Assembly (NCBI RefSeq): GCF_023721415.1
Contig: NZ_JAMQVC010000002.1
Span: 620,001 to 684,000, forward strand
DNA length: 64,000 nt
Origin: Galbibacter mesophilus
Lineage (GTDB): Bacteria > Bacteroidota > Bacteroidia > Flavobacteriales > Flavobacteriaceae
Reading direction: 5' to 3'
Shown: positions 2,536 through 46,560 of the stretch, in pieces
Layout: the number at the start of each line of letters is the position of its first letter
How positions within the stretch are numbered: the stretch's first letter is position 1
Notes under the pieces: generated by a model
The model's input: only the letters and a program-made list of their open reading frames with translations
Database searches by the model: none
Told to the model about the DNA's origin: nothing
Program-made: the position numbers and the translations under genes

Positions 2536-2964
2536 ATGCGTACAAGAAGTATCAAAGAGTCGAGATTTCAATTAAGCTCTTTTTCAAACGCCATAGGGAT
2601 ATCGGTAGCAGGATTGTGTTTAGTACATTGCCTTGCAACTCCCTTAATTTTTATTGCCCAAGCTAATGTTCAAGCGCAGGAATCAACTCATTTTATTTGG
2701 TCGATTTTAGATATTGTGTTTCTTTCAATTTCTTTGGTCGCTATATTTTGGTCGGCGAAAAGCACTTCCAAACAATGGATGAGAATTGCATTATGGACAA
2801 ATTGGATTTTAATTGCATTGTTTATCTTCAATGAAAAATTAGCTTTATTTCCTTTACCGGAAATTCTAATGTACGCGCTAACTTCCATACTGATAATACT
2901 TCATATAGTTAATGTGAAGTACTGTAAATGCGATGATGATACATGCTGTATACATCCAAAATAG
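2536..2964 (+). CDS. MerC-domain inner-membrane protein
   Basis: 142 residues with about four hydrophobic segments. The first segment holds the MerC-like signature LCLVHCLATPL, where paired cysteines in classical MerC bind and pass Hg(II). A second cysteine/histidine cluster closes the protein (CKCDDDTCCIH). In flavobacteria, MerC-domain proteins occur without the rest of the mer operon, so a general soft-metal or metal-homeostasis role is as likely as mercury transport; no merA, merP or MerR-type gene is visible here. It ends just before a bidirectional terminator. Confidence 0.8.
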   Translation: MRTRSIKESRFQLSSFSNAIGISVAGLCLVHCLATPLIFIAQANVQAQESTHFIWSILDIVFLSISLVAIFWSAKSTSKQWMRIALWTNWILIALFIFNEKLALFPLPEILMYALTSILIILHIVNVKYCKCDDDTCCIHPK

Positions 2965-3008
2965 CTATCAGCAGTGGAATAGTAGTTATAAGTATTTTAG
3001 GAATAAAA

Positions 3009-3047
3009 AAACGCCGCAAAAGTTTAATTTTGCGGCGTTTCTTTTTT
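3009..3047. terminator. bidirectional intrinsic terminator
   Basis: A perfect 13-bp stem (3009-3021 with 3028-3040, GC-rich centre CGCCGC/GCGGCG) with a 6-base loop. It is followed on the + strand by a run of seven T after one C and preceded by an A-run that serves the minus strand. It separates the MerC-like gene from the convergent lipoprotein gene. Confidence 0.9.
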
Positions 3048-29940: not shown

Positions 29941-30312
29941 ATGAAATTAGGAGCATTTTCAGTTAGTTTAAGCGTCGAAAATCTTAGCGTTTCCAAAAAG
30001 TTTTATGAGAATTTAGGATTTTCTGTTTTTGGTGGTTCCATGTCGCAAAACTACCTTATTATGAAAAATAAGGATTGTTTAATTGGTTTGTTTCAAGGAA
30101 TGTTTCAGGGAAACATTTTAACCTTCAATCCTGGTTGGGATTCGAATGCCCAAAAACTGAAAGAATTTGATGATATAAGAACCATTCAGCAAGAAATAAA
30201 AGCTAACGGCGTCAAAATCGATAAAGAAATAGATGAAGACTCCACAGGACCTGCCAGTTTTACCATATCCGACCCCGATGGAAATGTAATTCTGTTTGAT
30301 CAACATATCTAA
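29941..30312 (+). CDS. VOC (glyoxalase/bleomycin-resistance fold) family protein
   Basis: 123 residues with the paired beta-alpha-beta-beta-beta modules of the vicinal-oxygen-chelate fold: SLSVENLSVSKKFYENLGF at the start and a typical closing strand FTISDPDGNVILFDQ. The substrate is unknown; the family includes glyoxalases, dioxygenases and antibiotic-binding proteins. Single gene, no operon partner required. Confidence 0.85.
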   Translation: MKLGAFSVSLSVENLSVSKKFYENLGFSVFGGSMSQNYLIMKNKDCLIGLFQGMFQGNILTFNPGWDSNAQKLKEFDDIRTIQQEIKANGVKIDKEIDEDSTGPASFTISDPDGNVILFDQHI

Positions 30313-30407
30313 ATTAATATTAAGCGTATAATAAACTTCAGGAATCGTTTTAATTGGAAAACTTTTATATATTTAACTTCTTATTAATCAGCAACTAACC
30401 AATTAGA

Positions 30408-31043
30408 ATGAAGACCTTAGCAAGAAGAAGTATTTGGGTGCTATTTGCATTTATGTGCATTGGCATTGGGCTCTATCCAATAATTTATTTTTTAATCGAT
30501 GGTAATTTTGGCTTGTTACTCAACAAAACTCCAGAATTACTAGCTGATCAAATATGGAATATTGCGTTTTACGGACATATAACTCTTGGAGGTCTTGCAT
30601 CGCTTATTGGATGGATGCAATTCAGTTCGAAACTTCGAAGAAGAAATATTAAATTACATAGAAACATCGGTAAAATATACATTTTTGCAGTTTTAATAAG
30701 CGGAACTTGCGGCGCATATATTGCACAATTTGCAACGGGAGGAATAAGCAATAGTATTGGTTTTACCTTAAGCGGTTTGGTTTGGTTAAGTACAACAGCT
30801 TTGGCCTATAACGCGATTGTTAAAGGAAAAATTAGAGAGCATCAGAACTTTATGATATATAGCTACGCAGTTTGTTTTTCCGCCGTAACATTACGTATTT
30901 GGCTACCGGCGTTAACCGCAATTTTGGGAGAATTTCGTCTTGCTTATCTTATTGTAGGCTGGTTGAGTTGGGTACCAAATTTGGTTGTTGCTTACTTTAT
31001 AATAAAAAAGATACATCCCAAACCATATCCTCAGCAAATTTAG
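30408..31043 (+). CDS. DUF2306-type integral membrane protein
   Basis: 211 residues with about six membrane segments. The pattern HITLGGLASLIGWMQF, then LHRNIGKIY, and later REHQNFMIYSYAVCFSAVTLRIW matches the DUF2306 family; conserved His and Arg at membrane boundaries suggest a cofactor or proton role. Function is not established. It converges with the photolyase gene, only 20 bp between stops. Confidence 0.75.
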   Translation: MKTLARRSIWVLFAFMCIGIGLYPIIYFLIDGNFGLLLNKTPELLADQIWNIAFYGHITLGGLASLIGWMQFSSKLRRRNIKLHRNIGKIYIFAVLISGTCGAYIAQFATGGISNSIGFTLSGLVWLSTTALAYNAIVKGKIREHQNFMIYSYAVCFSAVTLRIWLPALTAILGEFRLAYLIVGWLSWVPNLVVAYFIIKKIHPKPYPQQI

Positions 31044-31063
31044 GCTTTACGATAGTTTAATTC

Positions 31064-32368
31064 TTAGTCTAAAGCAGATTTGTAAGTCTTTAAACAACGT
31101 TCCCGAGCTTCTTTATGATCTACCATTCTATCAGGGTAGGTGAGCTCGTTGTAATCTTCTACCCAGCGTGTAATGTATTTTAAATCTTCATCGAACTTTT
31201 TTATTTGGGTAGTCGGATTAAAAATTCTAAAGTAAGGCGCGGCGTCTACGCCACTTCCGGCAGCCCATTGCCAGTTACCTACATTGCTAGACATTTCGTA
31301 GTCCAGTAGTTTTTCAGCAAAATAGGCCTCTCCCCAGCGCCAATCGACCAACAAATGTTTGGTTAAAAAACTGGCAACAATCATACGCACACGGTTATGC
31401 ATGTATCCAGTTTTATTTAATTGCCTCATCCCAGCATCTACAAATGGATAACCTGTTTCCCCCTTACACCACTTTTCGAATTCCTTTTCATTGTTTCGCC
31501 ATTCAATTCGGTCGTATTTTTCCCGAAAGGCATTGTTCACGGTTTCTGGAAAATGCCAAAGTATTTGCATGAAAAATTCGCGCCATATCAGTTCGTTCCA
31601 AAAAGTTTCTTCTTTGGCTTCTACCGCTTTTTTAAGTATTTTTCGGTAGCCTACCGTACCAAAACGCAAGTGTACACTCAGGTTTGAAGTTCCATGCTGG
31701 GCAGGATAATTCCTAGTGTCTTTATAATTTTCTAAGGTAGTTGGTGTTACATCGTAATCTTTTACTTCAATTTTTGATTTTTCGAATCCGATATCGGATA
31801 AACTCAACTGTGGTAAGCGAGTGTTTTTAACCAAATTGTCAAGATACTGACTCGTATAGTGAATTGTAAGCTCCTTTTTACTGAAATTTTCTTTCCATTT
31901 CTTCATATAAGGGGTGTACACCACATAAGGGTCGCCATCATCTTTCACCACTTCATCTTTTTCAAAAAATACTTGGTCTTTAAACGTTTTGAATGAGATT
32001 CCTTCCGAATTCAATAAATCCGAAATTTCCTCATCCCTCTTTTTGGCGTAAGGTTCGTAATCATGATTGGTATAAACTTCCTGAATGTCGTAATCCGAAA
32101 GGAGCATTTTAAATACACTTTTCGGATTGTCATGAAAGAGTGCTAAGGAGCTATTGTGTTCTTTTTGAAGGACATCCCGCATTTCCTGTAGCTTTTTATG
32201 AATGAAAGTCACTCGTGCATCGTCCTTAGGCAACCCATCCAAAATCTGTTTATCAAAAATAAATATGGGCATCACAGGAAATTCCCCTTTCAGGGCTTCT
32301 AGAAAACCAACATTATCATCTAATCTTAAATCCCTGCGGAACCAAAAAATGGAAATTTTATCCTTCAT
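31064..32368 (-). CDS. phr: deoxyribodipyrimidine photolyase/cryptochrome family protein
   Basis: 434 residues. N-terminal Rossmann-type antenna domain (ISIFWFRRDLRLDDN) and C-terminal FAD-binding helical domain with WNELIWREFF, the GYPFVDAGMRQL motif, HNRVRMIVASFLTKHLL and NWQWAAGSGVDAAPYFRIFNP. These are the hallmarks of class I photolyases that repair cyclobutane pyrimidine dimers with light; a cryptochrome role cannot be excluded. Full family length. No neighbouring crtB-type genes. Confidence 0.92.
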   Translation of the reverse strand: MKDKISIFWFRRDLRLDDNVGFLEALKGEFPVMPIFIFDKQILDGLPKDDARVTFIHKKLQEMRDVLQKEHNSSLALFHDNPKSVFKMLLSDYDIQEVYTNHDYEPYAKKRDEEISDLLNSEGISFKTFKDQVFFEKDEVVKDDGDPYVVYTPYMKKWKENFSKKELTIHYTSQYLDNLVKNTRLPQLSLSDIGFEKSKIEVKDYDVTPTTLENYKDTRNYPAQHGTSNLSVHLRFGTVGYRKILKKAVEAKEETFWNELIWREFFMQILWHFPETVNNAFREKYDRIEWRNNEKEFEKWCKGETGYPFVDAGMRQLNKTGYMHNRVRMIVASFLTKHLLVDWRWGEAYFAEKLLDYEMSSNVGNWQWAAGSGVDAAPYFRIFNPTTQIKKFDEDLKYITRWVEDYNELTYPDRMVDHKEARERCLKTYKSALD

Positions 32369-32516
32369 TGTATTTTTTGTTTATCAGAACACTAAAATAA
32401 TTAAACAAAACAAGCATCGTGCAACTAATGATGCTTTTAAGATTTCGTTAACAACTTGAATGTGCTTTATGCGTAAATTCGTAGGACTAATAACTAATTT
32501 AAAATAATCAAAAAAA

Positions 32517-33362
32517 ATGAAAAAGCTTTTATTAACCGTTTGCTTGGTGTTAACTGGCGTAGCTTTGCAGGCCCAAGTTACTACCCCGCAACCGAGTCCG
32601 AAATCTACGTTGCAACAACAAGTAGGTTTAACAGATGTAACTGTTGAGTATTCCAGACCATCCATGCGTGGAAGGGAAGTTTTCGGGAATTTAGTTCCTT
32701 TTGGTGAAATATGGAGAACAGGAGCCAACCAAAACACCATGATAACTTTTAGTGATGATGTAACTATTGGCGGAACAAAGGTTGAAAAAGGTACCTACGC
32801 TTTGTTTACCAAACCTAATGAAAAAAACTGGGAAGTATATTTTTATACTGATACCAACAATTGGGGAAATCCTCAAAAATGGGACGACAGCAAAGTAGCT
32901 GCAAAAGTTTCCGCAGAAACTTATGAACTTCCTTTTGACGTAGAAACTTTCACTATTGATATCGATAACTTAACCAACAACGGAGCTGCTATAGGTATTG
33001 TTTGGGAAAATACTTACGTAAGTGTTCCATTTGAAGTTCCTACGCAAGAAAAAGCTATAGCTAGTATTGAAAAAGTAATGAACGGTCCTCAAGCTGGAGA
33101 TTACTATTCCGCAGCCGTTTATTATTTACAGGAAGAAAAGGAATTGAAGCAAGCAGAGGAGTGGATTGATAAAGCTATTTCTTCCCAAAAACAAGCCCCT
33201 TTTTGGATGCTTCGTCAAAAATCTTTAATTCAAGCTGCACAAGGAAATAAAAAAGGCGCCATAGAAACCGCTAAAAAATCATTAGCTGCAGCGGAAAAAG
33301 CTGGAAATAAAGATTACGTAAAGCTTAACCAAGACTCATTAGCAGAATGGGGAGCTAAGTAA
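32517..33362 (+). CDS. DUF2911 domain protein, exported
   Basis: 281 residues. A signal peptide (about 1-19, ending LQAQ) is followed by a DUF2911 domain (about 30-165: VTVEYSRPSMRGREVFGNLVPFGEIWRTGANQNT) and a C-terminal helical, TPR-like region (about 180-281). DUF2911 proteins are abundant in Bacteroidota and of unknown role. A weak promoter-like TAAATTCG lies upstream at about 32474. A bidirectional terminator follows. Confidence 0.85.
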   Translation: MKKLLLTVCLVLTGVALQAQVTTPQPSPKSTLQQQVGLTDVTVEYSRPSMRGREVFGNLVPFGEIWRTGANQNTMITFSDDVTIGGTKVEKGTYALFTKPNEKNWEVYFYTDTNNWGNPQKWDDSKVAAKVSAETYELPFDVETFTIDIDNLTNNGAAIGIVWENTYVSVPFEVPTQEKAIASIEKVMNGPQAGDYYSAAVYYLQEEKELKQAEEWIDKAISSQKQAPFWMLRQKSLIQAAQGNKKGAIETAKKSLAAAEKAGNKDYVKLNQDSLAEWGAK

Positions 33363-33382
33363 AAGATATATTAATTTCTTTA

Positions 33383-33424
33383 GGCTGTCTTACCTAATTT
33401 TTATAGGCTAAGACAGCCTTATTT
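33383..33424. terminator. bidirectional intrinsic terminator
   Basis: Perfect 11-bp stem AGGCTGTCTTA/TAAGACAGCCT (33383-33393 with 33410-33420), flanked by AT-rich tails on both sides. It serves the convergent DUF2911 and DUF805 genes. Confidence 0.85.
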
Positions 33425-33428
33425 TATA

Positions 33429-33803
33429 TTAAATTTCTGTGGACTTGGGATTGGGACCGTATTCGTTCGTTTTATTTTCACTATCAGTAGCTAATAATAC
33501 AAATAGCCAAATACCTCCAATAATAGGAATAAGTCCCACTAACATCATCCATCCACTTTTACCAATGTCATGCAAGCGTCTTACGGCAACTGCAATTCCA
33601 GGAATTAATACAATAAGTCCATAGACAATGTAAATAGGGCCGTAGCCTATACCTTCAAAAGCAAGTCCTGTAACATTGTCTAATACACCTGCAATTAAAG
33701 CAAAAATAAGATTGAAAAGAGCGAACATCCAATATTCTTTTCTTCTTGCTCTTCCATTAAAATCCGCGTAGTGATTTTTTAAAACTTTTAAATACCAATT
33801 CAT
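33429..33803 (-). CDS. DUF805 family membrane protein
   Basis: 124 residues. It opens MNWYLKVLKNHYADFNGRARRKEYW, the typical DUF805 start, followed by three to four membrane segments and the RRLHDIGKSGWM motif. Proteins of this family are widespread small inner-membrane proteins of unknown role. Stop is 5 bp from the shared terminator. Confidence 0.88.
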   Translation of the reverse strand: MNWYLKVLKNHYADFNGRARRKEYWMFALFNLIFALIAGVLDNVTGLAFEGIGYGPIYIVYGLIVLIPGIAVAVRRLHDIGKSGWMMLVGLIPIIGGIWLFVLLATDSENKTNEYGPNPKSTEI

Positions 33804-33911
33804 ATTATTATTTTAGGTTCCTACTCATTTGGCTTTTCGGTTACGCCCTGTTTGTATGGTGTCGAGACTCCATTTTAAGGTGTAAATATATAGAAAAAAA
33901 GCGTTATTTCC

Positions 33912-35291
33912 CTAAAACAATTTACTCAACATTTTCACATATTTTAATTTTCCAGCATACGGAGCATATTTAAGTGGAACATCTAGCCAAGTACCTCGGC
34001 GAACAACAGCTTTTTTATGGGAAAATACATCGAAAGTGAGTTGTCCGTGGTAAGCGCCAATTCCGCTGTTTCCAACCCCACCAAATGGTAATTTTTTATT
34101 TATAAAATGTACAACTGTATCGTTTATCGTGCCGCCACCGTAAGAATTCTCGTTCATGATGCGATTGGCGAAATGTTTGCGTTTCGAAAAAACATAAAGT
34201 GATAACGGCTTTTCGAACCGGGAAATAATCGGTTCAATTTCATTCTCATTTTTATAACTGAGAATTGGTAGAATCGGACCAAAAATTTCGTCTTTCATAA
34301 CTTCGCTTTTCAGACTAGGTTCATCAATGAGGGTGGGGGCAATAAAAAGCTCGCTTTCCACAGTTTCACCTCCAAAAAGCACAGACTGACCATTCAACAA
34401 GTTCTTTAGGCGATTAAAATGGTCTTTATTTACAATTCTTGGAAAATCAGGTGAATCTTTAGGGGTATTGGTGTAAGCGTTTACAATCTCATCCTTTAAA
34501 GCAACTATTAATTTTTGTTTTATATTTTCAGCAACCAAGAGGTAATCCGGAGCTATACAAGTTTGTCCGCCATTCAAAAATTTCCCCCAAACAACCCTTT
34601 TTGCAGCTTGGTTAATATCTGCGGTTTCATCAACAATACAAGGATTTTTACCTCCTAACTCCAAGGTTACGGGCGTAATGTGTTTTGCAGCAGCCTGATA
34701 AACAATTTTTCCCACTTTCGGACTACCGGTAAAGAAAATGTAATTCCATTGTTGTTCCAGTAATTGTTCTGAAACCTCTTTACCTCCTTGTACAACAGCA
34801 ACATGGTTTTTGGGAAAAACTTCTGAAATAATTTCATCAATAATAGTAGCCGTATTTGGGGTGAGTTCCGAAGGTTTCACCACGGCAGTATTTCCAGCGG
34901 CTATGGCGCCAATGAGTGGGGATAGCGCAAGTTGAAAAGGATAGTTCCATGGAGCAATAATTAGAACTGTCCCATAAGGTTCTTTAATGATTTTAGCAGA
35001 TGATGGAAAATTCACAAGGGAGGCGGACACACTTCTTGTTCTTGCCCATGAATTTATTTTCTTGATGGTGTTATCCAATTCTGTAATAATATATTGCGTT
35101 TCTGTGAGTAATGATTCAAATTCACACTTTTTAAAATCGGCAAAAAGCGCATCACAAATATTTTTTTCGCGTTTTTCAATCACCGCTTTCAATTTTTTTA
35201 AGGCAGCTTTTCTGTTGTTAATATCCCTTGTTTTGCCAGCATTGAAATACGTTTTTTGGTTATTAATGAGTTCTGTTATAGATGTGTCCAT
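33912..35291 (-). CDS. aldehyde dehydrogenase, class 3-like
   Basis: 459 residues. NAD(P)-dependent oxidation of aldehydes. Visible: IAPWNYPFQLALSPLIGA, GSPKVGKIV, ELGGKNPCIVDE with the catalytic Glu, NGGQTCIAPDY with the nucleophilic Cys, and EIFGPILPIL. A C-terminal extension (KYAPYAGKLKYVKMLSKLF) resembles that of membrane-associated fatty-aldehyde dehydrogenases (ALDH3 type). Preferred substrate inferred only. It is divergent from the ilv leader region. Confidence 0.9.
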   Translation of the reverse strand: MDTSITELINNQKTYFNAGKTRDINNRKAALKKLKAVIEKREKNICDALFADFKKCEFESLLTETQYIITELDNTIKKINSWARTRSVSASLVNFPSSAKIIKEPYGTVLIIAPWNYPFQLALSPLIGAIAAGNTAVVKPSELTPNTATIIDEIISEVFPKNHVAVVQGGKEVSEQLLEQQWNYIFFTGSPKVGKIVYQAAAKHITPVTLELGGKNPCIVDETADINQAAKRVVWGKFLNGGQTCIAPDYLLVAENIKQKLIVALKDEIVNAYTNTPKDSPDFPRIVNKDHFNRLKNLLNGQSVLFGGETVESELFIAPTLIDEPSLKSEVMKDEIFGPILPILSYKNENEIEPIISRFEKPLSLYVFSKRKHFANRIMNENSYGGGTINDTVVHFINKKLPFGGVGNSGIGAYHGQLTFDVFSHKKAVVRRGTWLDVPLKYAPYAGKLKYVKMLSKLF

Positions 35292-35348
35292 GATTTTTAT
35301 TCTAAAAAAAGTTTTTTCAAGTTATAAATTATATTTAATATTGCAGTG

Positions 35349-35441
35349 ATGAAAATATCACCGTATAAAATATTAGAACAAGCGAATACAATTACAGTAA
35401 TCATTTCTGTCATTACTTTGGTAATTATTTTACTGAAGTAA
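35349..35441 (+). CDS. first ilv leader peptide, Ile/Val/Leu/Thr-rich
   Basis: A 30-codon ORF, MKISPYKILEQANT then a run with ITVIISVITLVIILLK. From codon 15 to 29, eleven of fifteen codons are Ile, Val or Leu, and two are Thr. It stops seven bases before the end of AAAGGAAG (35441-35448), the upstream strand of a proposed antiterminator. This is the layout of a classical attenuation leader. It was too short for normal gene calling. Ribosome stalling at these codons when charged branched-chain tRNAs are scarce would favour read-through. Confidence 0.8.
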   Translation: MKISPYKILEQANTITVIISVITLVIILLK

Positions 35442-35500
35442 AAGGAAGTGTTTATATTTAAAATATAGTAAGCCTTCCTTTAAAACGGAAGGCTTTTTTT
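35441..35500 (+). terminator. first ilv attenuator: antiterminator and intrinsic terminator
   Basis: Terminator: AAGCCTTCC (35470-35478) pairs with GGAAGGCTT (35487-35495), followed by T to 35500. Antiterminator: AAAGGAAG (35441-35448) can pair with CTTCCTTT (35474-35481), which overlaps the terminator's left arm; TATTT/AAATA between them extends the stem. The antiterminator strand touches the leader 1 stop codon, so a ribosome reaching the stop would mask it and let the terminator form. Confidence 0.8.
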
Positions 35501-35505
35501 ATGGA

Positions 35506-35562
35506 ATGAAAATAGCAAACAAAAATATTATTATTATCAGCATTGTCATTAACTCGTCTTGA
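35506..35562 (+). CDS. second ilv leader peptide, Ile-rich
   Basis: An 18-codon ORF starting right after terminator 1: MKIANKN-IIIISIVI-NSS. Of the eight codons 8-15, six are Ile and one is Val. It ends 1 base before the strand TTGATGCA (35564-35571) of a second antiterminator. It lies only 6 bp after the T-run of the first terminator, so it is only transcribed when attenuator 1 is passed. Confidence 0.78.
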   Translation: MKIANKNIIIISIVINSS

Positions 35563-35563
35563 G

Positions 35564-35622
35564 TTGATGCATGCCCTTATTGTATAAAGGTCTGTATCAA
35601 CAAGTGATACAGACCTTTTTTT
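35564..35622 (+). terminator. second ilv attenuator: antiterminator and intrinsic terminator
   Basis: Terminator: a perfect 14-bp stem AAAGGTCTGTATCA (35586-35599) with TGATACAGACCTTT (35605-35618), loop ACAAG, then T to 35622. Antiterminator: TTGATGCA (35564-35571) can pair with TGTATCAA (35593-35600, one G-U), and inside it CCTT (35575-35578) with AAGG (35587-35590). It therefore consumes the whole left arm of the terminator. Confidence 0.8.
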
Positions 35623-35813
35623 ATGGTTCAAATTAAGAAATATAATCGTTTGAATGTCCTAAAAAATAAGCCTTAAAAGGCTGATTATCAGAAAAATGAA
35701 TATTAATTATGGGTGTTGGATTTAAAGTAAATAGGTAATTGAATTAAAAAAATAGAAATTCAATACCATAATTTTGATTTAAATTAATAATACTCGAAAA
35801 TTTAACATATAAA
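35623..35813 (+). other. 191-bp untranslated region before ilvD
   Basis: AT-rich stretch between attenuator 2 and the ilvD start. It contains a short hairpin AGCCTT/AAGGCT (35669-35682) without a T-run. No third branched-chain-rich leader ORF was found. Confidence 0.5.
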
Positions 35814-37496
35814 GTGAAATTAAATAAGTTTAGCCAGCAAGTTACCCAAGACCCATCGTTACCAGCAGCACAAGCCATGCTTCATGCGTTGGGCTTAACC
35901 GATGAAGATTTAAAAAAGCCTTTTGTAGGTATTGCCAGTACAGGTTACGAGGGAAATCCTTGTAACATGCATTTAAATAGTTTGGCGACCCATGTAAAAA
36001 AAGGGACTGAAAATGCTGATTTAGTTGGTTTGATTTTTAATACTATTGGTGTGAGCGATGGAATATCTAACGGTACACCAGGAATGCGTTTTTCCTTGCC
36101 ATCGAGGGATATTATTGCCGATTCTATGGAAACGGTAGTAGAAGCAATGAGTTATGATGGTTTAGTAACCGTGGTTGGTTGCGATAAGAATATGCCCGGA
36201 GCACTTATGGCGATGTTGCGTTTAAACCGCCCTTCGGTTTTGGTGTATGGAGGTACTATAGCTTCCGGTTGTCACAATGGGAAAAAACTGGATATTATTT
36301 CTGCCTTTGAAGCCTACGGACAAAAAGTTGCGGGAACGATAGATGAAGAAGAATATAAAGAAGTTGTTCATAAAGCTTGCCCTGGTGCCGGTGCTTGCGG
36401 AGGAATGTACACAGCAAATACTATGGCTTCTGCCATTGAAGCTCTTGGAATGTCATTACCGTTTAATTCATCGAATCCAGCGGTTAGTAATGAAAATATA
36501 AAAGAACAAGAAGCGCAAAGAGCAGGGGAGGCAGTGCGATTATTGCTGGAGAGAGATATTAAGCCTAGTGATATTGTAACCAAACAGTCTTTAGAAAACG
36601 CTATTCGATTAGTAACTGTATTAGGTGGTTCCACAAATGCGGTACTTCATTTCCTAGCCATCGCTAAGGCGGCGAAAGTTGATTTTACTTTAGATGATTT
36701 TAAAAGAATTAGTGATAGTACACCACTTTTGGCAAACCTAAAACCTAGCGGGAAGTATTCTATGGAAGATTTACACCACATCGGCGGTATTCCTGGAGTA
36801 TTAAAGTATATGTTGGAAAAAGGAATGTTGCACGGCGATTGCTTAACCGTTACTGGAAAGACTTTAGCCGAAAATTTAGTTGACGTACCAAGCTTAAAAG
36901 AAAATCAAGATATTATTCACCCGATTGAAAAACCTATAAAGGATAGTGGACATATTCGAATTTTATTCGGAAATCTTGCTACGGAAGGAGCTGTTGCTAA
37001 AATTACAGGAAAAGAAGGGCTTTCTTTTAGAGGGACAGCCAACGTATTCAATGATGAAAAATCGGTGAATGAAGGTATTAAAACTGGAAAAGTCAAAAAA
37101 GGTGATGTCGTCATTATCCGGTATGAAGGTCCAAAAGGAGCTCCGGGAATGCCAGAAATGTTAAAACCGACTTCCTCCATCATGGGAGCTGGTTTAGGAA
37201 AAGATGTAGCCTTAATTACTGACGGTCGTTTCTCAGGGGGTTCACACGGTTTCGTGGTTGGGCATGTTGCCCCTGAAGCGCAAGTGGGAGGAAATATTGC
37301 TTTGGTGGAAAATGGAGATATCATTGCTATAGATGCGGTTAACAATACCATCAATATTGAAATTTCAGATGAAGAGTTAGCTAAAAGAAGAGCAAATTGG
37401 AAAGCGCCTAAACTGAAAGCGGAAAGAGGAATATTATACAAATATGCCAAAACGGTTTCCTCCGCTGCTAAGGGCTGTGTAACCGACGAATTTTAA
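35814..37496 (+). CDS. ilvD: dihydroxy-acid dehydratase
   Basis: 560 residues. Dehydrates 2,3-dihydroxy acids to the 2-oxo acids in Ile and Val synthesis. The Fe-S cluster cysteines are visible in [15 protein letters not shown] and [10 protein letters not shown], the active-site SGGSHGF near the C-terminus. The start is GTG (35814); no in-frame ATG gives the conserved [23 protein letters not shown]-terminus. First gene of the ilv operon, controlled by the tandem attenuators upstream. Confidence 0.96.
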
Positions 37497-37553
37497 AACA
37501 CAATACCAATTTTATAATTATGGGTAATACCTGTAACTAATAGATTGTTACTT

Positions 37554-39287
37554 ATGGAAGTAAAAACATTAAAAAAAGAAGAAAGCAAAACCGGAACTTC
37601 AATAAGAGTTTCTGGTGCTGAAGCAGTAATCCACTGTTTGTTGGCGGAAGGCATAGATACGGTTTACGGGTACCCAGGTGGTGCAATTATGCCTATTTAT
37701 GATGAATTGTTCAAATTTAAAGATGAACTTCATCACGTGCTAACAAGACATGAGCAGGGAGCTGCACATGCAGCGCAAGGATATGCACGTGTTTCGGGAA
37801 AAGTGGGAGTAGCTATGGCTACATCCGGACCTGGTGCCACAAACTTGGTTACGGGAATTGCTGATGCGCAAATCGATTCGACTCCTTTAGTTTGTATTAC
37901 GGGGCAGGTAGCGCGTCATTTATTGGGTTCTGATGCTTTTCAGGAAACCGATATTGTTGGAATATCCACGCCTGTTACCAAATGGAACTATCAGATTACC
38001 CATGCTTCGGAAATTCCCGAAGTAATTGCTAAAGCCTTTTACATAGCACGTTCGGGAAGACCAGGGCCTGTTTTAATTGATATTACTAAGAACGCCCAGT
38101 TTGAAGAATTCGATTTTAAATATCAAAAGTGTACCGCTATACGCAGTTATACGGCAAAACCGACCATAAGTCAGCTTAAAATTGAGGAGGCCGCGGAAGC
38201 CATTAATAATGCCAAAAAACCAATGATTGTTTGGGGACAGGGAATTATTCTAGGAAAAGCAGAGGCGGAGTTAAAAGCTTTTGTTGAGAAGACAGGAATT
38301 CCAGCTGCATGGACCATTTTAGGCGCTTCTGCATTACCGAATACACATCCTTTAAATGTTGGGATGGTAGGAATGCATGGTAATTATGGACCAAACATTT
38401 TAACCAACGAGTGCGATGTTCTAATTGCCCTTGGAATGCGTTTTGATGACCGTGTTACCGGAGATTTATCTACTTACGCCAAACAAGCTAAAGTACTTCA
38501 TTTTGAAATCGACCCTGCTGAAATTAACAAAAACGTACATGCTGATGTTCCAGTTTTAGGGGATGTTAAAGAGTCTTTGGAAGCAATTCTACCGCTATTG
38601 AAGGAAAACAAGCACGAAGCTTGGCACAATGAGTTTAAAGAAAAGTATAAAATAGAGTTTGATAAAGTAATTAAAAATGACCTTCAGCCTGAAAAAGAGG
38701 GCTTAACCATGGGAGAGGTGATTGAGCAAATCAATATAGCGTCCAAACATGAGGCAGTTATTGTTTCCGATGTAGGTCAGCATCAAATGATTGCTTGTCG
38801 TTATGCTAAATTCAATACTTCCAAAAGTAATATTACTTCCGGAGGATTGGGAACCATGGGATTTGCACTTCCTGCCGCCATTGGTGCGAAGATGGGGGCT
38901 CCAAAAAGAGAAGTAGTAGCCGTAATTGGAGACGGTGGTTACCAAATGACTATTCAGGAACTAGGAACTATTTTTCAAACTGGAGTGCCCGTAAAAATTG
39001 TAGTACTTAATAATGAATTCCTTGGAATGGTAAGACAATGGCAACAATTGTTTTTTGATAAACGCTATGCTTCTACGGAAATGACAAATCCTGACTTTAT
39101 TAAAATTGCCGAAGGATATCACATCCAAGCAAAAAAGGTTACGAAAAGGGAAGATTTAGCTACTGCGGTGGAAGAGATGATGGCATCACCAGATGCTTAT
39201 TTCTTAGAGGTACAAGTTGAAAAAGAAGACAATGTATTTCCGATGATTCCTACCGGAGCTTCAGTATCCGATGTTAGGTTGAGTTAA
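37554..39287 (+). CDS. ilvB: acetolactate synthase, large (catalytic) subunit
   Basis: 577 residues from ATG 37554 (an upstream TTG at 37545 is less likely). ThDP- and FAD-dependent condensation of pyruvate with pyruvate or 2-oxobutyrate, first common step of Val/Leu and Ile synthesis. Seen: HEQGAAHAAQGYAR with the catalytic Glu, ATSGPGATNLVTGIADA, and the ThDP/Mg motif GDGGYQMT...LNNEFLGMVRQWQ. It lies 57 bp after ilvD. The small subunit follows after a 175-bp gap carrying its own promoter. Confidence 0.96.
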   Translation: MEVKTLKKEESKTGTSIRVSGAEAVIHCLLAEGIDTVYGYPGGAIMPIYDELFKFKDELHHVLTRHEQGAAHAAQGYARVSGKVGVAMATSGPGATNLVTGIADAQIDSTPLVCITGQVARHLLGSDAFQETDIVGISTPVTKWNYQITHASEIPEVIAKAFYIARSGRPGPVLIDITKNAQFEEFDFKYQKCTAIRSYTAKPTISQLKIEEAAEAINNAKKPMIVWGQGIILGKAEAELKAFVEKTGIPAAWTILGASALPNTHPLNVGMVGMHGNYGPNILTNECDVLIALGMRFDDRVTGDLSTYAKQAKVLHFEIDPAEINKNVHADVPVLGDVKESLEAILPLLKENKHEAWHNEFKEKYKIEFDKVIKNDLQPEKEGLTMGEVIEQINIASKHEAVIVSDVGQHQMIACRYAKFNTSKSNITSGGLGTMGFALPAAIGAKMGAPKREVVAVIGDGGYQMTIQELGTIFQTGVPVKIVVLNNEFLGMVRQWQQLFFDKRYASTEMTNPDFIKIAEGYHIQAKKVTKREDLATAVEEMMASPDAYFLEVQVEKEDNVFPMIPTGASVSDVRLS

Positions 39288-39462
39288 AATAAGTTTATAA
39301 TGTTAAAAAGTAGCTAGTTAGTAGATTGATAGGTGCGGTTTGTTAAACTTTTAGTTAAAATAAATTTGATTATAAAAAGTAATGAAAAATCATACAAAGT
39401 TTGAGAATCAGAAACATTTATCAATTCTAAGTGCTTGGTACTAACTACTTAATATTAAAAAA
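39288..39462 (+). promoter_or_regulatory. internal promoter upstream of ilvN (TTTG-N18-TAAATTTG)
   Basis: TTTG at 39339-39342, 18 bases, TAAATTTG at 39361-39368, a full match to the Bacteroidota promoter consensus, about 95 bp before the ilvN start. It would allow ilvNCA transcription independent of the attenuators. The rest of the gap is AT-rich with a decayed inverted repeat (AGTTAGTA near 39316 and TACTAACT near 39438). Confidence 0.65.
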
Positions 39463-39993
39463 ATGGAAGAAAATAAAACATATACCATTTCAGTTTATTC
39501 TGAAAATAACGTAGGATTACTCAACAGAATCTCTGGAATATTCTTAAAGAGACACATTAATATAGAGAGTTTAAATGTTTCTAAATCAGAGATTGACCAT
39601 GTTTCAAAGTTCACCATAGTAGTTCATACTACGGAGGATTGGGCGCGCAAAATTGTTGGTCAGATTGAAAAGCAAATTGAGGTTATTAAGGCGTATTATC
39701 ATACCAATGAGGAAACCATTTTTCAGGAATCTGCCTTATTTAAAATAGCGTCAAATTTACTTTTTGATGAAAGACAGATTCAGAATATAATAAAAGATAA
39801 CCATTCCGAAATCGTTACCGTTTCCCCAGAATTTTTTGTGATTTCAAAATCGGGAAGAAGGGAAGAGATTGAAGAAATGTACGAGCAACTAAAACCTTAT
39901 GGCATCATGCAATTTGTTCGTTCGGGAAGAATATCGGTTTCTAAGTCGGAAATGCAGATTTCAAATATTTTAAAAGAATTTCAATATCAATAA
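39463..39993 (+). CDS. ilvN: acetolactate synthase, small (regulatory) subunit
   Basis: 176 residues. An N-terminal ACT domain (TISVYSENNVGLLNRISGIFLKR) that binds the feedback inhibitor valine, and a C-terminal regulatory domain that activates the catalytic subunit. Length and order are normal for the family. Probable partner: the ilvB product just upstream. Confidence 0.93.
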   Translation: MEENKTYTISVYSENNVGLLNRISGIFLKRHINIESLNVSKSEIDHVSKFTIVVHTTEDWARKIVGQIEKQIEVIKAYYHTNEETIFQESALFKIASNLLFDERQIQNIIKDNHSEIVTVSPEFFVISKSGRREEIEEMYEQLKPYGIMQFVRSGRISVSKSEMQISNILKEFQYQ

Positions 39994-40027
39994 TTTGAAT
40001 ATCCGTAATGCAAAATACGAAGATTAA

Positions 40028-40107
40028 AATGTCAGGTCGAGCGCAGTCGAGACCTTATTTAAAGCTATTTAGCCAAATGACCTCTCGACTGCGCTCGAGG
40101 TGACATT
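40028..40107. repeat. REP-like palindromic element between ilvN and ilvC
   Basis: Left arm AATGTCAGGTCGAGCGCAGT... (40028-40057) and right arm ...ACTGCGCTCGAGGTGACATT (40079-40107) are inverted copies. Each arm holds the 16-mer TCGAGCGCAGTCGAGA or its complement, itself partly self-complementary (TCGA...TCGA). The two mismatch positions are GG/CC changes. I recall TCGAGCGCAGTCGAG-type repeats as dispersed in several flavobacterial genomes. On RNA it would form a strong hairpin between the two cistrons. Confidence 0.75.
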
Positions 40108-40181
40108 GAGTTATGATAATTACGGATAATCATTCAATAATCAGAAAAAAAGAAAAACAACTAAAATTAATAGAAAACAAA

Positions 40182-41651
40182 ATGGCAAATTATTTTAATA
40201 CACTTTCGCTTAGACAGCAATTAGAACAATTGGGAGTATGTGAATTTATGGATATTTCTGAATTCAGTGACGGTGTAGAAAAACTTAAAGGAAAAAAGGT
40301 AGTGATTGTAGGATGCGGTGCACAAGGTCTAAATCAAGGACTTAACATGAGAGATTCTGGTTTAGATGTTTCGTATGCATTGCGTGAAGGTGCCATTAAA
40401 GAAAAAAGACAGTCCTACTTAAATGCTACTGAAAATGGATTTAAAGTGGGTTCTTACGAAGAACTAATCCCTTCAGCAGATTTGGTTTGTAACTTAACCC
40501 CAGACAAGCAGCACACCAATGTTGTGAGTACCATTATGCCTTTAATGAAAAAAGGGTCAACACTTTCTTATTCCCATGGTTTTAACATTGTTGAAGAGGG
40601 AATGAAAGTTCGTGAAGATATTACCGTTATCATGGTTGCGCCAAAATGTCCGGGTTCAGAGGTTCGTGAGGAGTACAAACGTGGTTTTGGGGTACCTACC
40701 TTAATTGCGGTTCACCCAGAAAACGACCCAGAAGGAAAAGGATTGGAGCAAGCAAAAGCTTACGCTGTAGCTACAGGAGGACATAAAGCAGGAGTATTGC
40801 GTTCTTCATTTGTTGCCGAAGTAAAATCGGATTTAATGGGAGAACAAACCATTCTTTGTGGGTTGCTTCAAACGGGGTCTATCCTTTGTTTTGATAAAAT
40901 GGTTGAAAAGGGAATTGATGCTGGCTACGCTTCAAAATTAATTCAGTACGGATGGGAAACTATTACGGAAGCTTTAAAGTACGGTGGTATTACCAATATG
41001 ATGGACCGTCTTTCAAATCCTGCTAAAATTGAAGCATTTAAGCTTTCCGAAGAATTAAAAGAAATTATGCGTCCGCTTTTCCAAAAACACATGGACGACA
41101 TTATGAGCGGTCATTTTTCTAAAACTATGATGGAAGACTGGGCAAACGACGATAAAAACCTTCATACCTGGCGTGCAGCTACAGGAGAGACTGCTTTTGA
41201 AAAAACGCCGGCTGGAGATGTAGCTATTTCTGAACAAGAGTATTTCGACAATGCGGTGTTAATGGTGGCTTTTGTGAAATCGGGTGTGGAATTAGCCTTC
41301 GAAACCATGACGGAAGCCGGAATTATTGAAGAATCTGCTTATTACGAATCGCTACACGAAACACCGCTTATTGCGAACACGATAGCGAGAAAGAAATTGT
41401 TTGAAATGAATCGTGTTATTTCCGACACAGCGGAATATGGTTGTTACTTGTTTGACCACGCTTGTAAACCGTTGTTAACAGATTTCATGAAGAAAGTTGA
41501 TACAAACATTATAGGGAAACCTTTTGCAACCTCAAATGGGGTAGACAACAAAGAGTTGATTGAAGTTAATGATCAAATCCGTAATCACCCAGTGGAAGAA
41601 ATAGGAGCATGGTTGCGTACTTCCATGACTGCTATGAAAAAAATAGTATAA
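40182..41651 (+). CDS. ilvC: ketol-acid reductoisomerase, class II
   Basis: 489 residues from ATG 40182; the frame is open to 40113, but the family begins at [14 protein letters not shown]. It isomerises and reduces acetolactate/acetohydroxybutyrate using NADPH. Rossmann motif [14 protein letters not shown], then the [18 protein letters not shown] segment. The long form, with a duplicated C-terminal domain (as in E. coli IlvC), marks class II. Fourth gene of the ilv operon, after the palindromic element. Confidence 0.95.
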
Positions 41652-41749
41652 ATTTTTAGAAAAGTAACTGCTTAGCATAGTTTGCCGATCTGTCAGACTA
41701 TCCCGAAGTTTCGGGGGTAAAGCCGTTGCCTTCTAAAACAAATAGTTTT

Positions 41750-43012
41750 ATGCAAACAGAAACAGTTTACATACCAACATTAGAAAATGTAAGAAAAGCT
41801 GCTGCTACCCTCAATGGGGTAGCAGCAGTTACACCTTTAACCCATAGCTTAAGGTATTCCAAAAACTTGGAAGCCAACATTCTTCTTAAACGGGAAGATT
41901 TGCAAGTGGTTCGTTCTTATAAAATTCGTGGCGCCTACAATAAAATGAGTTCTTTAACGAGCGCAGAACGTAAAAAGGGAATTGTTTGTGCTTCGGCAGG
42001 GAATCATTCGCAAGGAGTAGCGTATTCGTGTAAAGAGCTTCAAATAAAAGGAACTATTTATATGCCTTCGCCAACACCTAAACAAAAGATTGAGCAGGTA
42101 AAAATGTTTGGTGAAGATTATATTGATATTGTTTTGGTGGGCGATACTTTCGATGATGCCAACAAAGCCGCATTGGCGGAATGCAATCGTTTGGGAAAAA
42201 CCTTTGTACACCCTTTTGATGATGAGAAAGTTATTGAGGGACAAGCTACCGTTGGATTGGAAATTCTTGAACAAACCAAAAAAACAATCGATTATGTGTT
42301 TGTGGCTGTTGGAGGTGGAGGCTTGGCGTCTGGACTTTCCAGCGTATTTAATGTACTTTCTCCACAAACTAAAATAATTGGGATTGAGCCTCAAGGTGCT
42401 CCATCCATGAAAACTTCCTTAGACAATAAAAAAAATACTGAATTAAAGGAGATTGACAAGTTTGTTGATGGTGCAGCCGTGCAACGTGTTGGTGATAAAA
42501 CTTTTGCTATTTGCAGTCAGCTATTGGATGAAATGATTACCATTCCGGAAGGTAAAGTTTGTCAGGAAATATTGGATTTATACAACAAAGACGCTATTGT
42601 AGTGGAACCTGCTGGAGCACTTACTTTGGCTGCTTTGGATTTTTACAAGGATAAACTGAAAGGTAAAAACGTAGTTTGTGTAGTGAGTGGTAGTAATAAC
42701 GATATTACCAGAACCGCGGAAATAAAGGAACGAGCATTGTTGTATGCCAATTTAAAGCATTACTTTATCATTCGTTTTCCACAGCGTGCAGGAGCGCTTA
42801 AGGAATTTGTTGCTGAAATCTTAGGGCCTTCGGATGACATTACCCATTTTCAGTATACCAAGAAAAATGCAAAAGAAAATGCTCCAGCCGTGGTTGGAAT
42901 TGAGTTAAAGGACGAAACGGATCTAGAACCGCTAATTGACCGCATGAAATCCCGAAATTTCTTCGGGGAATATCTCAACAATAAACCCGATCTTTTTCAG
43001 TACTTAGTGTAA
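41750..43012 (+). CDS. ilvA: threonine ammonia-lyase (biosynthetic)
   Basis: 420 residues from ATG 41750 (an upstream TTG at 41726 is less likely). PLP-dependent deamination of Thr to 2-oxobutyrate, the entry to isoleucine. PLP lysine in VVRSYKIRGAYNKM, phosphate-binding GGGGLASG, SGSNNDITR. The C-terminal ~85 residues (YFIIRFPQRAGALKEFV) form an ACT-like regulatory domain. Last gene of the ilv operon. The Thr codons in leader peptide 1 fit this gene's inclusion. Confidence 0.95.
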   Translation: MQTETVYIPTLENVRKAAATLNGVAAVTPLTHSLRYSKNLEANILLKREDLQVVRSYKIRGAYNKMSSLTSAERKKGIVCASAGNHSQGVAYSCKELQIKGTIYMPSPTPKQKIEQVKMFGEDYIDIVLVGDTFDDANKAALAECNRLGKTFVHPFDDEKVIEGQATVGLEILEQTKKTIDYVFVAVGGGGLASGLSSVFNVLSPQTKIIGIEPQGAPSMKTSLDNKKNTELKEIDKFVDGAAVQRVGDKTFAICSQLLDEMITIPEGKVCQEILDLYNKDAIVVEPAGALTLAALDFYKDKLKGKNVVCVVSGSNNDITRTAEIKERALLYANLKHYFIIRFPQRAGALKEFVAEILGPSDDITHFQYTKKNAKENAPAVVGIELKDETDLEPLIDRMKSRNFFGEYLNNKPDLFQYLV

Positions 43013-43122
43013 GTTATGATATAATTATCAATAACGATTAGAGTTGAATTTATCTTGGCTAATTACGATATTTATATAAATTATTAGAATCTTAAGCATC
43101 TTTGCTTTTCAAAAAATGAATT

Positions 43123-44724
43123 ATGGAGACCAATACCAAAACGTTTAAAGAAATACCGGAAAAATTTCAGATTAAAGAACTCGTACATCAAGATAAATTT
43201 TTAGTAGGTGGACAATTGAAACAATGGGAAGGTAAAACTACCGAAGTATTTTCTACCATTTCTTCTACGGAAGATTACAAGCCTACTTTATTGGGAACCA
43301 TTCCTTACATGGGAGAACCAGAAGCGAATGAAGCTTTGGAAGCAGCAGCAAAAGCTTTTGATAAAGGAAAAGGATTGTGGCCAACCATGAAGGTTGCCGA
43401 TAGAGTGGCGTGTATGGAGAAGTTTGTAAAGCAAATGGAAACCAAACGGGATGAAGTGGTGAAGCTTATTATGTGGGAGATTGGTAAAAACTTACCGGAT
43501 TCGGAAAAGGAATTCGATAGAACGGTGGAATATATCTACGACACCATTGAAGACTACAAGCAACTGGATCGAGATTCTGCCAATTTTCAAAAACGTGACG
43601 GGATTTACGCACATATACGTCGTGGTCCTTTGGGGATAGTTTTGTGTTTAGGACCTTATAATTATCCTTTGAATGAAACTTTTGCATTATTAATCCCCGC
43701 TTTGATAATGGGGAATACCGCCATTTTTAAACCTGCCAAACACGGTGTTTTATTAATTACTCCTTTGTTGGAGGCGTTTAGAAACAGTTTTCCTAAAGGT
43801 GTCGTAAATATTGTTTATGGTCGCGGTAGGGAAGTGGCTGCGCCCATAATGAAGTCTGGACGCGTGGATGTTTTAGCATTGATTGGGAACAGTAAATCTG
43901 CTGTAGCTTTGCAAGATCAGCATCCTTATAAAAATAGATTACGTTTGGTACTCGGACTAGAAGCTAAGAATCCGGCGATTGTTTTGCCCGATGCCGATCT
44001 CGATTTGGCTATTAACGAATGTATTGCTGGAACGCTATCTTTTAACGGGCAACGTTGTACAGCCTTAAAATTGGTATATGTGCATGAAGACATTCGTGAA
44101 GAATTTAATAAACGATTTGCTAAGCGTGTTGATGAGTTAAAGTTTGGCAATCCTTGGGAAGAAGGAGCGAAACTAACGCCACTTCCAGAGCCGGATAAAC
44201 CGCAATATATTCAAGAGCTTATAGCCGATGCGAAATCGCATGGAGCTGCCATACTGAACAAAAAAGGCGGACAAATAAGCGAAAATTATATTTATCCAGC
44301 AGTTTTATATCCAGTAAATAAGGACATGCGAGTGTATCACGAAGAGCAATTTGGCCCAGTTATTCCAATAGTTCCTTTTAATGATATCGAGGAGCCTTTA
44401 AATGATATTGCCAATTCCAATTACGGACAACAAGTGAGTTTGTTCGGGGCGGATATCCGCACCTTGGCACCGCTTATTGATACGTTGGTTAACTTAGTTT
44501 GTAGAGTGAACCTTAATAGTTCTTGTCAACGTGGTCCAGATGTTTATCCTTTTACGGGTAGAAAAGATTCGGCAGTGGGTACTTTGAGCGTGCATGATGC
44601 GTTGCGTTCATTCTCCATTCGTACGTTTGTAGCTTCAAAAGACAATGAATACAACAATCGTATTCTAAACGATCTTTTGGGCAGCAAAGCTTCGAATTTT
44701 GTAAGTACTGATTATATTTTGTAA
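43123..44724 (+). CDS. gapN: NADP-dependent glyceraldehyde-3-phosphate dehydrogenase (non-phosphorylating)
   Basis: 533 residues, aldehyde-dehydrogenase superfamily. It converts glyceraldehyde-3-phosphate directly to 3-phosphoglycerate, giving NADPH instead of ATP. Features: [21 protein letters not shown], catalytic Glu in [11 protein letters not shown], nucleophilic Cys in [10 protein letters not shown], and [32 protein letters not shown], typical of GapN. Separated from ilvA by 110 bp; a promoter with near-consensus CATCTTTG lies at about 43098. Followed by a strong terminator. Confidence 0.88.
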
Positions 44725-45941: not shown

Positions 45942-46496
45942 ATGAAAATTGAAAACATTAAAAACGCCATCTTAATTGCCGCTATTGCATTTACTACTTC
46001 CATTTCTTTTGCACAAGAAACTAAAATGGTTGGAGGAGCAGCGATGTACCCAACTAAAAACATCGTAGAGAATGCTGTAAATTCAAAAGACCATACAACT
46101 TTGGTTGCAGCCGTTAAAGCTGCCGATTTGGTGGAAACATTACAATCCGACGGACCTTTTACTGTGTTCGCTCCTACAAATAAAGCTTTTGAGGCGCTAC
46201 CAGCAGGAACGGTTGAAACATTGTTGAAGCCTGAAAACAAAGAAAAATTGCAAGCTGTACTTACTTACCACGTAGTATCTGGTAAAATGGACGCAATGGA
46301 CTTGATGAATGCCATTAAAGATGGAAAAGGAAAGGCAATGCTAAAAACGGTTAACGGAGAGAGCCTAACCTTTATGAAAAAAGGAAAAAAATTAATGGTA
46401 ATGGATTCTAAAGGAAACAAAGCCAAAGTAACCATTGCAGACGTATATCAATCGAATGGGGTAATCCACGTGATTGATACCGTATTGCTACCATAA
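45942..46496 (+). CDS. secreted fasciclin-domain protein
   Basis: 184 residues. A signal peptide (about 1-26, ending SFAQ) and one fasciclin (FAS1) domain with the characteristic SDGPFTVFAPTNKAFEALPAGTVETLL and TYHVVSGKMDA, closing ADVYQSNGVIHVIDTVLLP. FAS1 proteins mediate cell-surface adhesion or matrix binding. Single gene followed by an intrinsic terminator. Confidence 0.92.
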   Translation: MKIENIKNAILIAAIAFTTSISFAQETKMVGGAAMYPTKNIVENAVNSKDHTTLVAAVKAADLVETLQSDGPFTVFAPTNKAFEALPAGTVETLLKPENKEKLQAVLTYHVVSGKMDAMDLMNAIKDGKGKAMLKTVNGESLTFMKKGKKLMVMDSKGNKAKVTIADVYQSNGVIHVIDTVLLP

Positions 46497-46527
46497 GGTG
46501 GGAATAATTGCTAAAGAAAAAGAAATG

Positions 46528-46560
46528 AAAGCGCTCTATTAAGGGCGCTTTTATTTTTTT
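46528..46560 (+). terminator. intrinsic terminator of the fasciclin gene
   Basis: Stem AAAGCGC/GCGCTTT (46528-46534 with 46545-46551, extended by a G-U and a C-G pair) and a T-rich tail. The stop codon of the convergent acyltransferase gene lies inside this terminator. Confidence 0.8.

Follow-up and report, generated by a model that had tools for sequence, protein, structure and literature searches.

Can two attenuators that read the same amino acids stand one behind the other in front of a single biosynthetic operon? An attenuator of the textbook kind normally occurs once per operon, and the enterobacterial trp, his and ilv operons have one unit each. The leader of the ilvDBNCA operon of Galbibacter mesophilus had been described in a first-pass annotation as two complete Ile/Val attenuators in series. 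This leader was analyzed computationally in a stretch of 64,000 nucleotides, here called the window, and was compared with the corresponding regions of related genomes.

Structure of the ilv leader

The leader separates ilvD from a divergent aldehyde-dehydrogenase-like gene (33912-35291, minus strand) and contains two short ORFs and two predicted intrinsic terminators. The genes downstream, which are under its presumed control, are ilvD, ilvB, ilvN, ilvC and ilvA (35814-43012, plus strand), as the annotation had named them. The closest named ilvD relatives, 87% identical, are from Arenibacter, Leeuwenhoekiella and Maribacter, in a listing that may omit records very near the genome of the window; they assign the window to the Flavobacteriaceae or its vicinity.

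All elements of the leader are on the plus strand. Leader ORF 1 (35349-35441), which belongs to unit A, has 30 codons, is rich in Ile, Val and Leu (8 Ile, 3 Val and 4 Leu, counted by eye) and encodes the peptide MKISPYKILEQANTITVIISVITLVIILLK. Leader ORF 2 (35506-35562), of unit B, has 18 codons and encodes MKIANKNIIIISIVINSS, with 7 Ile, a single Val (GTC) and no Leu by the same kind of count. The two Ile/Val-rich ORFs were found exactly where the annotation had placed them, and comparable leaders occur in relatives. An ORF list with a 20-residue minimum begins leader 1 at 35346, where there is an in-frame GTG, and leaves out leader 2, which falls below the minimum. The second unit had been said to begin 6 bp after the first terminator, in keeping with the five bases that separate the end of the first U-run (35500) from the ATG of leader 2.

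In unit A, strand 1 of the 1:2 hairpin (35397-35455) lies within the ORF, so that 35402-35408 pairs with 35444-35450. The hairpin has a predicted energy of -19.6 kcal/mol, equaled by none of 100 codon-permuted versions. The antiterminator 2:3 (35441-35481) pairs 35441-35448 with 35474-35481 (-13.1 kcal/mol, z -5.3). The terminator T1 (35470-35500) has a stem of 35470-35478 with 35487-35495 followed by a U-run (-13.9 kcal/mol, z -3.7), and its hairpin class, CCTTCC..GGAAGG, is kept across genera. In unit B the 1:2 hairpin (35540-35574) spans the stop codon and has an energy of -14.4 kcal/mol, with 3 of 100 codon-permuted versions equally stable. Its antiterminator (35563-35601) pairs 35563-35571 with 35593-35601 (-15.9 kcal/mol, z -4.2), and T2 (35586-35622) consists of a stem of 35586-35599 with 35605-35618 and a U-run (-19.7 kcal/mol, z -7.4). 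The hairpin class of T2, CTGTATCA..TGATACAG, is also conserved in relatives. An intrinsic terminator is thus predicted after each leader, and its left arm can pair instead with a strand at the leader's stop codon, as had been proposed. In each unit the terminator and the antiterminator are of comparable strength (T1, -13.9 against -13.1 kcal/mol; T2, -19.7 against -15.9 kcal/mol). Both units therefore comprise an ORF rich in codons for the products of the operon, a predicted terminator, an antiterminator at the stop codon that excludes it, and a 1:2 hairpin. The 1:2 hairpins were absent from the annotation, as were the nearly leaderless promoter motif P1 and the possible promoter P2 downstream of both units, which are described below.

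T1 and T2 have the two longest stems among the plus-strand terminator-like sites of positions 30000-44000, and the fold of the whole leader is 6.5 standard deviations below that of shuffled sequences. When positions 35300-35700 were dinucleotide-shuffled 1000 times, at least one leader-terminator unit appeared once and two units never appeared, which excludes chance as the source of the pair. The unit caller found four units on the plus strand of the 64-kb window and none on the minus strand; the two outside the leader (2869-3044 and 46374-46556) were judged not to resemble attenuators.

A -7 element of promoter P1, TAATATTG, is found at 35336-35343 (plus strand) and matches TANNWTTG. Applying the position rule given for Flavobacterium johnsoniae promoters, T-12 to G-5 (PMC6847099), places the predicted transcription start at about 35348, which would leave leader 1 a 5' untranslated region of only about 1 nt. 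The motif is found with many first leaders and rarely with later ones. When a pool of 152 units was divided by whether the preceding 330 nt contain a terminator, TANNWTTG occurred on the 5' side of the ATG, within 60 nt of it, in 43 of the 100 units without such a terminator (first leaders) and in 2 of the 52 with one (later leaders). The matches begin 10-18 nt before the ATG in 36 of 46 cases, and 57 of the 100 first leaders have no TANNWTTG as searched in these 60 nt. Leaderless mRNAs are uncommon in the family; in Flavobacterium psychrophilum they amount to 5.5% of the mRNAs examined (PMC9723704).

Two unit types in the Flavobacteriaceae

Two types of unit are found 5' of ilvD in relatives, type A with the CCTTCC..GGAAGG hairpin and type B with the CTGTATCA..TGATACAG hairpin, each preceded by an Ile/Val-rich ORF. 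Covariance models were built from 15 A units (R1) and 12 B units (R2). At E<=0.01 in 349 Flavobacteriaceae genomes, A matches occur in 228 genomes and B matches in 134, and some of the A matches are ordinary terminators. A stricter set was formed from A matches at E<=2.2e-5, leaving out A-like matches at a second locus, and B matches at E<=5e-5, leaving out opposite-strand shadows. Among the matches listed, 97 of the 349 genomes then have A, 63 have B and 32 have both; two weaker B matches adjoining an A (G344 and G296) raise the last two numbers to 65 and 34. In all 32 genomes with both types, among the matches listed, B is downstream of A, on the same strand and within 1 kb, and no B was found upstream of an A within 1 kb. 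By hand count these 32 genomes, again among the matches listed, carry 26 genus labels. None of the excluded second-locus matches comes from a genome that has B and lacks a listed A. In G145 a slightly weaker A match (3.4e-5) is on a different contig from its B.

The second-locus A-like matches are about 96 nt long. The ten that were examined (L095-L103 and L105) turned out to be ordinary AAGCCTTCC terminators in front of a gatA-like gene, and the remaining ones were set aside by their similarity to these. In most of the loci L095-L103 an Ile-rich short ORF is positioned about 100 nt upstream of the gatA-like gene, and no terminator was found after it.

Among 80 named ilvD loci, the unit caller alone found no unit in 35, one in 27 and two in 18. 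Combining it with model matches at E<=0.001 gives 32, 26 and 22, respectively, by hand tally. Two of the 80 loci (L156 and L179) have less than 1000 nt of upstream sequence. With 32 loci devoid of a unit, the attenuator is dispensable. Two-unit loci include those of Tenacibaculum, Sinomicrobium, Bizionia, Gelidibacter, Kordia, Gaetbulibacter and Aquimarina, the last with different hairpins, CCCTTTAC or similar and then CCCTTC. Single B units are present in Arenibacter, Maribacter, Pseudozobellia and Flagellimonas, and single A units in Meridianimaribacter, Flavivirga and some Winogradskyella, other Winogradskyella having none. A lack of conservation in relatives had been named as one outcome that would overturn the proposal; instead, both leaders and both hairpins recur in many genera, in a fixed A-then-B order.

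Three terminators with leader ORFs precede ilvE-ilvD in three genomes (G121, G333 and G288). The first leaders of L092 and L093 fall below the threshold of the caller and were read directly. Units 2 and 3 of the triple arrays are 90, 75 and 81% identical, whereas unit 1 is only 41-52% identical to either, which points to a recent tandem duplication of unit B. In a class-wide sample of 29 ilvD loci (L293-L321) there is one tandem outside the Flavobacteriaceae (L315, family f31), with other hairpins. Single units are present in L294, L304, L306 and L321; L297 and L308 belong to the Flavobacteriaceae. Other matches of the caller in this sample resemble parts of coding sequences and were not counted. 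As stacked units occur in different families and before different operons, stacking seems to have arisen more than once.

Alternative pairings and regulatory codons

Strand pairing was studied in the pool of 152 distinct units, in which at least six I, V or L in nine residues were required and repeated combinations of peptide and hairpin were dropped. The composition of the pooled leaders is therefore conditioned on this choice, and the ORF given by the caller is doubtful in some units, for example L061, L089 and the first unit of L173. As the sequences are related and not independent, the pairing and codon statistics are indicative only.

In duplex folding, strand 2 pairs with strand 3 at a mean of -9.1 kcal/mol, compared to -5.5 kcal/mol for shuffles; 143 of the 152 units beat the mean of their own shuffles, and 91 do so at a level reached by at most 5 of 100. 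An initial ungapped test (71 of 152 at this level) missed bulged helices, and duplex folding was used in its place. By this cruder test the window's units A and B score 21 and 5 of 100, respectively. Exchanging strands among units shows that the pairing is class-specific: B strand 2 pairs with the B arm at -10.4 kcal/mol and with other arms at only -3.9 to -5.2 kcal/mol. The preference for the arm of the same class is clearest in B, and among A units the antiterminator is often weak, with 22 of 60 at <=5/100. The ungapped test found no helix in 7 of the 152 units; in 135 of the other 145, strand 2 starts close to the end of the stop codon, at most 4 nt ahead of it or 6 nt past it. The 1:2 hairpin has a mean energy of -15.1 kcal/mol, compared to -8.4 kcal/mol with permuted codons, and 113 of 152 units are at <=5/100.

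The covariation expected of relatives was found in part. In the B register TGATAC/TGATGC/TGATAT (32 sequences), four of eight pairs have compensatory types, and none of 500 row swaps matches the observed pairing. RNAalifold on stop-anchored A rows (32 sequences) recovers a 3-pair inner stem, which shows covariation, and nothing more. The window's own B register (12 sequences) gave no significant covariation, its pairs being nearly invariant, with one of eight compensatory and 116 of 500 swaps reaching the observed pairing.

The Ile and Val codons occupy positions 4-13 upstream of the stop, and few are found among the last three codons. This is the placement to be expected if strand 2 would be masked by a ribosome that stalls closer to the stop. 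Val is written as GTC in 83 of 150 cases in the leaders, compared to 159 of 1615 in ilvD of the same named loci, and the proportion is higher in the leader at 33 of 36 loci. Pairing is insufficient to explain this preference, for of the 91 Val codons whose third base is unpaired, 55 are likewise GTC. The excess fits a published theory of attenuation in which regulation should employ the sensitive codons among synonyms, and in which sensitivity is set by the choice of codon and by polymerase and ribosome starting in synchrony (PMC1183508).

Mechanism, alternatives and distribution

The leader of ilvDBNCA very probably carries two ribosome-mediated transcription attenuators in series on one transcript. 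The first-pass annotation was right to call both complete, given the tandem arrangement in many genera, its fixed order, the change of strand 2 together with the arm of its class, and the placement of the Ile/Val codons. The anatomy, conservation, alternative pairings and codon placement are read from the sequence, and from them we infer translation, stalling, termination in vivo and multiplication. The transcript would begin almost at leader 1 itself, about 1 nt ahead of its ATG. With charged Ile- and Val-tRNA, a ribosome reaching the stop codon would cover strand 2, and the terminator 3:4 would form. If the leader is not translated, the 1:2 hairpin would hide strand 2, likewise giving termination. 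When Ile or Val is short, a ribosome stalled 4-13 codons before the stop would open strand 1, allowing 2:3 to pair and the polymerase to read through. A polymerase that has passed unit A would meet the same question at unit B, so that read-through would approximate the product of the two, and the response would be multiplied and steeper.

The two units might instead divide the labor, A reading Val (plus Leu) and Ile and B mainly Ile, which would amount to an AND gate on different charged tRNAs. At 42 loci with at least two pooled units, codons 4-10 before the stop have fractions of I 0.61 and V 0.16 in the second leader and I 0.50 and V 0.27 in the first; V is 0.00 in the Bt leaders (7 units), and the Val and Leu counts of the window's two leaders, 3 and 4 against 1 and none, lean the same way. 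However, Ile dominates both leaders, and in these codons single-B loci have V 0.29, as high as the 0.25 of single-A loci, so that B is not inherently poor in Val; this reading is rather doubtful. It is unlikely that one unit regulates and the other is a spare, or a fail-safe terminator, left by duplication. Loci with a single A or a single B exist, each presumably sufficient, and the two B copies of the triple arrays are recent, but both types keep the leader and the 1:2, 2:3 and 3:4 pairings in many genera, a plain fail-safe terminator does not need a leader ORF, and the A-then-B order holds in all 32 genomes among the matches listed.

Two further explanations would deprive the leader peptides of their role. 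A candidate promoter P2, TAATTTTG at 35769-35776 (plus strand), matches TAHHTTTG downstream of both attenuators and would bypass them. The block 35640-35780, possibly a second promoter with an operator, contains TTGAATRTC-TAAA, CTGATnnTCAG and TTGGATTTAA and then TAnnTTTG; it is a regular feature of the window's genus and is retained in part by other genera, including some without attenuators. If the operon were driven mainly from P2, the attenuators would matter little. The motif is present at 22 of 79 named loci, with 6.9 expected from shuffles and 13 of the 22 matches at -58/-57, but none of the 18 two-unit loci found by the caller has it, ilvE being interposed at several of them, and a predominant role of P2 appears quite improbable. 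That the hairpins belong to a protein- or metabolite-responsive RNA, such as a riboswitch or a T-box, with the ORFs incidental, would fit their strong sequence conservation within classes. Yet Aquimarina and the triple-unit genomes have exchanged the hairpin sequence and kept the leader and the pairing logic, and no Rfam family matches at its gathering score the ilv leaders of the window and of L092, L128, L166, L009 and L018, so that this origin is extremely unlikely. The Bacteroid-trp family (RF01692) reaches 22.9 bits on the ilv region of the window, below its gathering score of 49. The only RNA found in the window at gathering score is elsewhere, a DUF805 RNA (RF03081, 63.8 bits) at 33814-33878 on the minus strand, followed by a putative DUF805 gene (ORF 33429-33803, minus strand).

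Two serial attenuators thus remain the preferred interpretation. Like the enterobacterial trp, his and ilv systems, each has a leader ORF with regulatory codons, 1:2, 2:3 and 3:4 pairings, an intrinsic terminator and a cognate operon; unlike them, the units are stacked in twos or threes, and the first ORF is nearly leaderless by its motif. The Salmonella mgtCBR leader RNA also has two leader ORFs in series, and the paper on it speaks of 'normally, a single attenuator'; its ORFs respond to different signals, ATP and proline, and its stem-loops are contrasted with intrinsic terminators (PMC3641672). In the ilv leader, by contrast, both units have Ile/Val codons, Ile dominating both and Val being scarcer in the second, and both end in intrinsic terminators. 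Repeated control elements are also known from tandem riboswitches of Bacillus clausii metE (PMC3641672), from glnA RNAs, whose tandem arrangement is said to give more digital regulation (PMC2864571), and from a rimP leader with a second tandem terminator (PMC2965389). The ilv units differ from the riboswitches in that their sensor would be the translating ribosome and not an aptamer. The open-access literature searched yielded no account of a biosynthetic operon preceded by serial attenuators that respond to one and the same signal. This arrangement looks new, tandem leader-ORF attenuators being already known from mgtCBR.

Leader-peptide attenuation had been called little documented in the Bacteroidota, which is only partly right, since it is already recognized there through RF01692, a leader-peptide RNA that differs from the ilv leader in reading Trp, and through the 'strong clues' for it in a 2021 paper on F. 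psychrophilum (PMC9723704). A map of Bacteroides thetaiotaomicron mentions sORFs 'reminiscent of leader peptides' (PMC7366714). In the relatives examined here, by criteria set separately for each search, His-rich leaders with terminators precede hisG at 15 of 18 loci and Phe-rich leaders precede pheA at 16 of 20. Upstream of trpE, leaders containing two or more Trp are present at 18 of 19 loci, at 26 of 27 further loci and at 17 of 20 loci mostly of other families. A search for threonine leaders before thrA/metL, at five of eight residues T, I or M, found none at 30 homoserine dehydrogenase loci. The window's own genome has His (HHHHFH, L203), Trp (WWW, L223) and Phe (FYFFFFYFF, L359) leaders with terminators before hisG, trpE and pheA, and its trpE leader matches RF01692 at 68.4 bits. 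Two Trp leader-terminator units in series precede trpE at L225 (102-356, plus strand) and L322 (776-1041, reverse-complement coordinates), both of one genus of family f2, and probably at L326 (769-1020, reverse-complement coordinates; family f15). A LeuA dimer-domain match is present in 8 of 25 genomes searched and in none of seven genomes of the window's genus (its own and six congeners), which suggests that leucine is not made there by the usual route.

Together with the ilv units, the His, Trp and Phe leaders of the relatives examined suggest that the Flavobacteriaceae make common use of leader-peptide attenuation. As a tentative proposal, the attenuators might be stackable cassettes, forming arrays of one, two or three units through tandem duplication and hairpin replacement and tuning the Ile/Val gain multiplicatively; a unit B that has lost Val codons would turn the pair toward an AND gate, ribosome and polymerase may be kept in step by the nearly leaderless first ORF, and trp stacking would be separate in other families. 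The natural series of one, two and three copies in one family, with GTC favored as the Val regulatory codon, would make gain, codon choice and synchrony directly testable.
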